A stretch of 64,000 nt of DNA from Halorientalis salina (GTDB taxonomy: Archaea; Halobacteriota; Halobacteria; Halobacteriales; Haloarculaceae), in the NCBI RefSeq assembly GCF_005049285.1, contig NZ_SOSC01000004.1:186001-250000 (forward strand), read 5' to 3'. The translations under genes and the position numbers were made by a program. A model generated the notes under the pieces. That model saw only the letters and a program-made list of their open reading frames with translations, ran no database searches and was not told where the DNA came from. Of the stretch, positions 60,889 to 63,038 are shown piece by piece (within the stretch, counting starts at the first letter, position 1; each line of letters starts with the position of its first letter).

Positions 60889-61266
60889 ATGAGTTCCGAC
60901 GATCAGCTCCGTGTCGCCGACATCATGACGACGCCGATCGAGACGATTTCGGAAGACGTGACCCTCGTCGAGGCCGCGGCCGCGATGCGCGAAAAGGAGA
61001 TGAGCGCCCTCCTCGTGACGACCGCGCCGCCCTCGATCGTGACCAGCACCGACATCCTCGACACCGTCGCCCAGGGGAAAGACACCTCGGCCCTCGACGT
61101 GACCGACGTGATGACCGAGTCCGTCGAGACCGTCCCGCCGAGCCTCCCCATCAACGAAGCCGCCCAGATGATGACGACCTTCGGCATCAGCCACTTGCCG
61201 GTCGTCGAGGACGACTACATCGGTATGGTCTCCTCGACCGACATCACGACGCATCTGTCCGACTAA
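60889..61266 (+). CDS. CBS-domain protein
   Basis: A 125-residue pair of CBS motifs (about 8-58 and 70-122): VADIMTTPIETISEDVTLVE / VTDVMTESVETVPPSLPINE. CBS pairs bind adenosine nucleotides such as AMP or ATP and act as energy sensors. Its partner is unknown. TATA-like ACATTAAC lies 28 nt before the ATG (leaderless). The stop codon TAA is part of the left arm of a 59-bp palindrome. Confidence 0.9.
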   Translation: MSSDDQLRVADIMTTPIETISEDVTLVEAAAAMREKEMSALLVTTAPPSIVTSTDILDTVAQGKDTSALDVTDVMTESVETVPPSLPINEAAQMMTTFGISHLPVVEDDYIGMVSSTDITTHLSD

Positions 61267-61320
61267 ATTTTTACTTCGGGGGGATTCGCCTTCGGCGAAC
61301 CCCCCTCGCAAAAATTTAGT
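61262..61320. repeat. 59-bp near-perfect palindrome after the CBS gene
   Basis: Outer arms ACTAAATTTTT (61262-61272) and AAAAATTTAGT (61310-61320) are perfect 11-bp inverted repeats. Inner arms GGGGGG-A-TTCGCC and GGCGAACCCCCC meet at a TTC loop with one unpaired A. Transcripts from either strand would end in a hairpin next to a T-run, so it can terminate in both directions; the terminal inverted repeats also resemble a miniature element. Confidence 0.75.
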
Positions 61321-61978: not shown

Positions 61979-62045
61979 CTATTCCTGCTCAGCCAACCAC
62001 GTCAACAGCCCGTTCTGGGCGTGCATTCGGTTCTCAGCCTGGTCC
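61979..62045 (-). pseudogene. detached second copy of the argF 3' end
   Basis: On the minus strand this encodes DQAENRMHAQNG followed by LLTWLAEQE and a TAG stop, the last 21 residues of ornithine carbamoyltransferase. It lies 169 nt downstream of the equivalent bases of the real argF end (62148-62214). Over the 64 shared coding bases, 59 are identical and all four altered codons are synonymous (GAA/GAG, TTG/CTA, CGA/CGG, GCT/GCC). It has no start and continues into unrelated sequence. It looks like the tail of another argF allele left behind by recombination. Confidence 0.85.
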
Positions 62046-62067
62046 GGCAGCCACCTTTTTCCGCTCG

Positions 62068-62144
62068 GGTCCATCGCTTCGCTCTGGACCACTCGCGAAA
62101 AAATCTGGACCAAAAAGACGACCACTCACTTCGTTCGTGGTCGT
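62068..62144. repeat. hairpins between argF tail copies
   Basis: GGTCCA (62068-62073) / TGGACC (62085-62090) and ACGACCAC (62118-62125) / GTGGTCGT (62137-62144), the latter enclosing TCACTTCGTTC, the reverse complement of GAACGAAGTGA. On the minus strand the second hairpin directly follows argF and is followed by five T (complement of 62112-62116), so it is also a candidate argF terminator. Confidence 0.7.
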
Positions 62145-62147
62145 GCT

Positions 62148-63038
62148 TCACTCCTGCTCAGCTAGCCACGTCAACAGCCCGTTCTGGGCGTGCATCCGGT
62201 TCTCGGCCTGGTCCCAGACGATGGCGTTGTCGCTCTCCAACACGTCGTCGGTGATCTCCTCGCCGCGGTGGGCGGGTAGACAGTGCATCACTGTCTTGTC
62301 GCCCACGAGGGAATCGTCGACCTGGAACCCCTCGAAGTCGGCGAGTTTCTGCTCGCGCTGGTCTTCCTGGCCCATGCTGACCCACACGTCGGTGTAGATA
62401 ACGTCCGCGTCGGCGACGGCGGCTTCGGGGTCGTGTGTCGTCTCGGGTTCAGTGCCGAGGGCGGCCGCGCGTTTGCGGACGTTGTCGGCGATGCCGTAGC
62501 CCTCCGGCGTGGCGACGGTCAGGTCGAGGTCGGCCATGGCCGCACCGACGACGAACGACTGGCAGACGTTGTTGCCGTCGCCGACCCACGCGACCGACAC
62601 GTCGTCGAACCCGCCGAACCGCTCGCGGATCGTCAGCAGGTCTGCCAGGGTCTGGCAGGGGTGGGCGTCGTCCGTGAGTCCGTTGATCACGGGAACCGTC
62701 GCGTACTCGGCCAGTTCCACCACGTCGGCGTGGTCGAACACACGGGCCATGATGAAATCGACGTACCGGGACACGGCCCGCGCGGTGTCCTTGATGGGTT
62801 CGCCGTGGCCCAGGTGGATGTCGTCGGGGCCGAGGAAGATGGCGTGGCCGCCCAGTTGGGTCATCCCCGTCTCGAAGGAGATGCGGGTCCGCGTCGAGGG
62901 TTTCTCGAAGATCATCCCCAGGGTCTGGTCTTCGAGGGGCTGGCCGTCGCCGTGGGCCTTCAACTCCGCCGCGCGGTCGAGGACGGTGTCGAGTTCCGTC
63001 GCCGTCAGATCGTCGACGTCGAGCAGTGACCGGACCAT
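62148..63038 (-). CDS. argF: ornithine carbamoyltransferase
   Basis: A 296-residue enzyme making citrulline from ornithine and carbamoyl phosphate. Carbamoyl-phosphate motifs EKPSTRTRISFETGM and LGGHAIFLG, the MARVFDHADVVELA and INGLTDDAHPCQTLADLLTI segments, and the ornithine-site HCLPAHRGEEITDDV are intact. It starts one base after the argE/lysK stop, so it ends an arginine operon whose earlier genes lie beyond the window. A fragment repeating its 3' end follows. Confidence 0.97.
   Translation of the reverse strand: MVRSLLDVDDLTATELDTVLDRAAELKAHGDGQPLEDQTLGMIFEKPSTRTRISFETGMTQLGGHAIFLGPDDIHLGHGEPIKDTARAVSRYVDFIMARVFDHADVVELAEYATVPVINGLTDDAHPCQTLADLLTIRERFGGFDDVSVAWVGDGNNVCQSFVVGAAMADLDLTVATPEGYGIADNVRKRAAALGTEPETTHDPEAAVADADVIYTDVWVSMGQEDQREQKLADFEGFQVDDSLVGDKTVMHCLPAHRGEEITDDVLESDNAIVWDQAENRMHAQNGLLTWLAEQE

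Follow-up and report, generated by a model that had tools for sequence, protein, structure and literature searches.

The window, by which we mean the whole 64,000-nucleotide stretch of Halorientalis salina DNA analysed, carries a working argF gene for ornithine carbamoyltransferase on its minus strand (62148..63038, 296 amino acids), the strand on which all the features of this locus described here are read. The assignment rests on the open reading frame and on family profiles, with 387 bits to TIGR00658 against a cut-off of 281 and with NF001986 and PF02729 plus PF00185 also above their cut-offs. The gene closes with its own TGA stop codon (62148-62150, from the ORF), and its 3' end (62152..62214, the proximal tail) is duplicated downstream as a distal tail copy (61979..62045) that consists of the last 21 argF codons and a TAG stop, with neither a start codon nor a gene body. 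In the repeat search this direct repeat, D1, pairs 61983-62045 with 62152-62214 at a spacing of 169 nt, 59 of the 63 nt being identical (94%), and the repeated codons read in frame as DQAENRMHAQNGLLTWLAEQE. The distal tail was also recovered by itself in a protein search of the genome (E-value 9e-7), far beyond chance. The two tails differ in an Ala, an Arg, a Leu and a Glu codon, all four changes being silent, and in the source genome they share no sequence past the stop codon. A preliminary description of this DNA had reported both the recurrence of the last 21 codons 169 nt downstream and the silence of the four differences, and both observations are borne out here.

Only a hairpin and a palindromic element, with no integrase or cargo, lie between the two argF ends. 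The hairpin, hp1 (ACGACCACGAACGAAGTGAGTGGTCGT; 62117..62147, read from the sequence), stands in the 3' UTR directly before a T-run and is the presumed argF terminator. Next to it is the 66-nt core of an element that we call R (TTTTTGGTCCAGATTTTT-hairpin-AAAAAGGTGG; 62051..62116), a strict pattern match at G000:C18:248051-248116 in the source genome, and a 5-nt junction filler, CTGCC (62046..62050), separates R from the tail copy; the filler is common to eight genomes, reading CTGTC in one of them. A related palindrome with the ends CTAAATTTTT / AAAAATTTAG is present elsewhere in the window (61262-61320), where it directly abuts a CBS-domain gene (60889-61266) at its stop codon, and a second site with these ends occurs in the genome at C20:8972-9029.

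R is a family of dispersed palindromic elements with the layout TTTTT-cGcCCAcg-TTTTT-hairpin-AAAAAGGTGG. A DNA search of the genome found ten places, the nine outside argF matching the spacer only, and the genome pattern TTTTTNGNCCANNTTTTTN{28,58}AAAAAGGTGG returned 21 strict copies in the source genome against 0 for a reversed-pattern control. R is present in all 12 of the relatives chosen, in 75 of the 145 genomes sampled across the class and in 24 of 28 within the window's own family. In the inner hairpin, the stem is preserved through a variety of pair types over 183 cores. The outer arms (CCA/TGG and T5/A5) also pair, but this proves nothing, because the search pattern itself fixes them.

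We assessed how often such elements are accompanied by a copied gene end. In the source genome, the 3' end of the upstream gene recurs directly after AAAAAGGTGG at 8 of 21 strict copies, and another R copy, whose core is a variant, also has a tail copy, at what we take to be a thiolase-like gene (this and the other gene names besides argF, such as hisH-like, are presumed from the sequence rather than from a family search). Across genomes, 250 distinct R cores were collected with a loop length slightly wider than that of the genome pattern; they are not independent, as tandem arrays and orthologous copies are counted separately. A direct repeat with a score of at least 18 flanks 97 of the 250 cores compared with 17 of 1500 random intervals, and in 95 of them the repeat starts 0-9 nt after AAAAAGGTGG (7 of 1500 random intervals), L265 and L266 being left out of the 95 with repeats that score 18 or more and lie more than 9 nt from the core. 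The end of the upstream ORF is contained in 93 of these 95 repeats; the remaining two, L073 and L077, were excluded from the codon count given below. The suggestion that the palindromic spacer at argF marks a junction is supported, and the spacer is also the agent of the duplication. The argF tail is one of many haloarchaeal cases in which R lies at a terminator between a true gene end and a spare one, apparently inserted in a way that doubles the gene end and leaves the gene unbroken.

A target duplication is not evident at every R, as 153 of the 250 cores have no detected flanking repeat. Next to 84 of these lies a convergent frame whose stop codon is usually 0-1 nt away, an arrangement seen at 60 of 989 random positions and at 1 of the 95 repeat cores. 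Coding sequence hence meets the right end of R flush in one of two ways, through a tail copy (95 cores) or through a convergent stop (84 of 153).

The wide range of host genes bears on one possible account of the spare argF end. Integrative elements at gene 3' ends restore those ends with silent differences, as at icd in E. coli, and the distal tail could on this model be the att scar of a lost integrative element whose attachment site was the argF 3' end. We give this very little credence, given that many unrelated genes carry the same short R core and that the R pattern has 0 matches in the IMG/VR viral contigs; a viral vehicle for R was rejected on the latter result. 

Several individual loci among the R copies deserve mention. 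The same genes recur with R and a tail across species (L006, L084, L089 and L130; L164, L155 and L169; L067, L111, L145 and L159), their tails being SREPDRGAWIGEGEGE.DYQ, ILRNFV.ICAE and EEFGG.VPD and their junctions partly shared and partly different. Upstream of many R copies (L049, L052, L053, L060 and others) is a second module, approximately GCATCCGCGCG...CGCGGTTCAC followed by a hairpin. At position 814 of L149 (G004) a gene tail directly follows TTTTTCGCCCAC without the remainder of R, and a related tail contains CGCCCACG, so recombination between R and a gene may have occurred there. R copies at L077 and L058 adjoin short repeats that resemble antisense tRNA 3' ends, a candidate identification made from the sequence.

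The start points of the 95 repeats carry a signature of their own. Exactly at the end of the core lie 33 of them, and 31 lie 4 nt later. When one inserted base is allowed, all three bases preceding a +4 start match the gene in 14 of the 31 cases (3% in mismatched pairs), and two of the three match in 8 more (14% in mismatched pairs). Among the inserted bases of these 22 cases are 14 C, 6 T and 2 A, so that 20 of 22 are C or T. Such a signature, with three native nucleotides plus one extra, nearly always pyrimidine, base after R, suggests one defined mechanism and speaks for a single defined enzyme and against breakage at random.

The other end of the duplications was examined in the same set. 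Of the 93 that contain a gene end, 30 stop between -4 and +2 nt of the stop codon. Those that run more than 12 nt past the stop without a second R following have TTTT at their end in 10 of 27 cases, compared with 37 of 2236 background windows, and at loci other than argF the duplication passes through a hairpin equivalent to hp1.

Three loci with R and a tail, L215, L204 and L205 of the related species G148 and G099, were compared with sister sites that lack R. At L215 (G099), both G148 and G031 are without R and have a single gene end with both flanks orthologous, and the duplication measures 139 nt against G148 and 160 nt against G031. At L204 (G148), 95 nt are duplicated relative to G031, which is without R; G099 also has R there, and the GCATCCGCGCG...CGCGGTTCAC module is found at the R-less sister site. 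At L205 (G148), the sequence of G031, which has no R there, is hairpin-TTTTT-GATCGCC, and G148 reads hairpin-TTTTT-CGCCCACG...AAAAAGGTGG-AGT-C followed by a second gene end and hairpin, giving a duplication of ∼80 nt that ends at hp1-TTTTT; this one was read directly from the sequences, the automated placement of the right flank having skipped the copy. All three R-less sites compared therefore reveal a long target duplication (∼80-160 nt), and the comparisons show that at these three loci R was inserted in place by a terminator hairpin. Given the R-less sites and the duplications that end at TTTT, R is most simply read as having entered at a terminator T-run, with the duplication reaching back into the gene.

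These comparisons also bear on whether the gene ends could have arisen by in-place tandem duplication of a unit of tail, hairpin and R, through slippage or template switching at a pre-existing R palindrome, with subsequent loss of the last R. Palindromes provoke slippage, and true arrays do exist, with about ten 171-bp units at L189 in G021 and pairs at L118 and L131. The inspected arrays, though, end mostly with a tail rather than with R, the additional pyrimidine at the junction is not expected from slippage, and sister sites devoid of any R mean that two steps would be needed with a precise loss each time; we therefore regard this route as unlikely. The L189 array itself (G021:C1:2702800-2706300) is made up of near-identical R-plus-tail units with a period of 171 bp.

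No R-less sister of the exact argF locus was found, and the hairpin and T-run evidence is absent for the argF event itself in the source genome, because the two copies there have nothing in common after the stop. We surveyed argF in other genomes, the closest named relatives being Haloarcula japonica, a Halovenus and a Halomicroarcula. Among 32 argF loci, the filler after R is CTGCC in G000, G009, G012, G020 and G148 and CTGTC in G099, different R junctions occur in G001-G005 and G021, and the others have R without a recognizable tail or no R. Haloarcula japonica and a Halovenus bring the argF junction GGTGG-CTGCC-GGACC to eight genomes. In Haloarcula japonica DSM 6131 the distal copy retains the hairpin and T-run, which ties the argF insertion to the terminator-targeted class.

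Across these genomes the two argF ends resemble each other more than they resemble their counterparts elsewhere, with an average tail identity of 0.925 within a genome compared with 0.841 between the distal copies of different genomes. The nearest relative of the distal copy is its own gene end strictly in 6 of the 8 genomes and as a tie in the Halovenus, and the distal copy of G099 is closer to G148 than to its own gene end. Both ends in the source genome share a Thr codon where the other seven genomes have Val or Ala, which indicates that the two ends evolve together. Judged from these codons and identities, the pattern of the argF tails is one of concerted evolution. As the copies are mostly like the argF end of their own genome, the insertion appears old and homogenized by gene conversion; it looks either old or widely transferred. 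For Haloferax, gene conversion between the copies of the genome is described as efficient (PMC8223754), and we infer that conversion also acts between neighboring repeats such as the argF tails. At L205, G099 has the same junction (AGT-T-GGGG) with a decayed copy and the G148 copy is fresh and nearly identical to the gene, a contrast such as conversion would give. In G008, a 46-residue stretch resembling the argF tail (G008:C1:1474106-1474243, 61% identical) lies ∼1 kb downstream of argF; an R copy is nearby, and the frame that contains the stretch has 298 codons.

The silence of the codon differences had led the preliminary description to propose that both ends diverged in working genes, and that a foreign or sister argF allele had more likely been recombined in than the gene end duplicated in place. 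In full, this explanation has an incoming allele, complete with stop, terminator and R, recombine into the gene, the right end of R joining the resident tail by an exchange homologous on one side and illegitimate on the other, and the old tail and flank staying downstream. Over the aligned codons of the 93 repeats, 181 differences are silent and 51 are not, where a neutral expectation would make 73% non-silent, and hence the copies, taken together, did not drift freely. Divergence within working genes is accordingly a suggestive reading of the whole set, and a weak one for the four argF codons, for which p is 0.005 with all the changes placed on a neutral copy and 0.16 with half of them placed on the working gene. 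Import would account for this excess as well as for the similarity that often ceases at the stop codon; the 30 of 93 duplications stopping there count against a target duplication, as they also fit recombination between diverged alleles. The hisH-like distal tail of G004 (L155) looks closer to the gene end of a sister species, and haloarchaea are reported to convert and recombine readily (PMC8223754).

Against import stand the three R-less sister sites, where the duplication took place in situ between orthologous flanks, and the presence of the same structure at many unrelated genes, always beside R, whose right end would need to be the breakpoint every time. Relatives largely do carry the same two argF ends, eight genomes sharing the filler while both of their tails carry genome-specific codons, among them the Thr codon common to the two ends of the source genome. 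A nearest-neighbor scan along argF of the source genome found no near-identical donor or donor-like segment, which is weak evidence. Silence does not call for a foreign allele, since constraint on the gene together with conversion suffices. Of the recombination originally envisaged, then, gene conversion did shape the copies, and there is no support for a foreign argF allele having been imported; such an allele is not needed to explain the tail copy, and we hold its import to be improbable.

The conservation of the distal tails could also reflect selection for a function of their own, for example as an RNA or as a repair template for the gene end, in keeping with the conserved peptide that they still encode at argF in eight genomes and with the inner R hairpin maintained by many pair types in the 183 cores. 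Some distal copies are nevertheless decayed (G099 at L205, and G001 and G005 at argF), many R copies have no tail copy, gene conversion explains the conservation, and none of the four loci searched matched Rfam at E≤1, on which a known RNA family was rejected. We consider a selected function distinctly improbable.

On balance we favor, with moderate confidence, the reading that R entered the argF terminator at its T-run and duplicated a long stretch of the target, leaving a spare gene end downstream. The insertion would have taken place in an ancestor or relative within the Haloarculaceae, and the target would have been duplicated from a point inside the last argF codons through the stop codon and the terminator hairpin, so that the argF end upstream of R stayed intact and the spare one came to lie downstream. 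Gene conversion would later have kept the spare copy gene-like, and its non-coding part would have drifted away in the source genome; the argF event was probably of the same kind as those at the three loci compared with R-less sites. More speculatively, R may be the substrate of an undescribed, reverse-transcriptase-free haloarchaeal system that targets terminator T-runs, copies 40-200 nt and always lands without breaking the gene, the junction of three nucleotides plus one pyrimidine being its biochemical footprint and the tail copies a homology arm aiding spread and homogenization.

The search for what moves R covered several candidates. SINE-like insertion by reverse transcription fits the layout, but the reverse transcriptase domain PF00078 (RVT_1) was found in 0 of 25 genomes (controls were positive in 3 of 14) and this candidate was rejected. 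Mobilization by a Y1/RAYT transposase gained no support, as the presence of Y1_Tnp does not track R: the domain is absent from the R-bearing G005, G012, G021, G031 and G124 and present in the R-free G082, G092 and G026. 

Comparison with known systems places R beside several of them. LINE and SINE target-primed insertion produces long target duplications of variable length, the target being a T-run and the element carrying an A-run, and R likewise has long duplications, a T-run target and an A-run; it differs in being palindromic, in the lack of any reverse transcriptase in the 25 genomes and in belonging to another domain of life. Group IIC introns, which also insert at terminator hairpins beside a T-run, need a reverse transcriptase and are not known to leave a long target duplication, whereas R has such duplications and RVT_1 was absent from the genomes searched. 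R resembles MITEs in being short, non-coding and dispersed with a putative terminal inverted repeat (CCAnnTTTTT / AAAAAnnTGG), but known MITEs have short target duplications set by the parent transposase, whereas no parent transposon came to light for R and its duplications measure tens to ∼160 nt (∼80-160 nt at the R-less sites). REP/BIME sequences with their RAYTs are, like R, palindromic repeats near gene 3' ends; they appear to differ in that the presence of Y1_Tnp does not track R, and to our knowledge REPs do not copy gene tails. No target duplication is expected of IS200/IS605-derived elements (PATE, REP), in contrast to the long duplications at R sites. 

The closest likeness is to the SMR-A/B elements of Haloquadratum walsbyi, reported as being ∼80-110 bp long and non-coding, with inverted ends, no known transposase, an enigmatic mobilization, a preference for IS605-type transposons and PATEs as targets and no target duplications (PMC3119063). 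R and the SMRs are alike in being small, non-coding haloarchaeal elements with a strong target preference, R also having putative inverted ends, and they differ in that R lies at gene terminators, often flanked by long gene-end copies, and the SMRs have no target duplication. As R shows target duplication it is not filed as an SMR, and it is best filed as a new variant among small palindromic mobile repeats. A literature search whose coverage left out subscription papers and preprints returned no description of the R repeat or of gene-tail copies beside such repeats. We know of no described prokaryotic element that inserts at terminators and leaves a complete spare gene end. If the favored reading is true, R follows a gentle insertion strategy at terminators, and its footprint is indicative of a definite enzyme. 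The loci with R and a tail would constitute dozens of natural gene-conversion experiments, located at the same site in several genera, each with a constrained and a free copy ∼100 bp apart, and for annotation they are a warning that short duplicates of haloarchaeal gene tails are not evidence of imported alleles.
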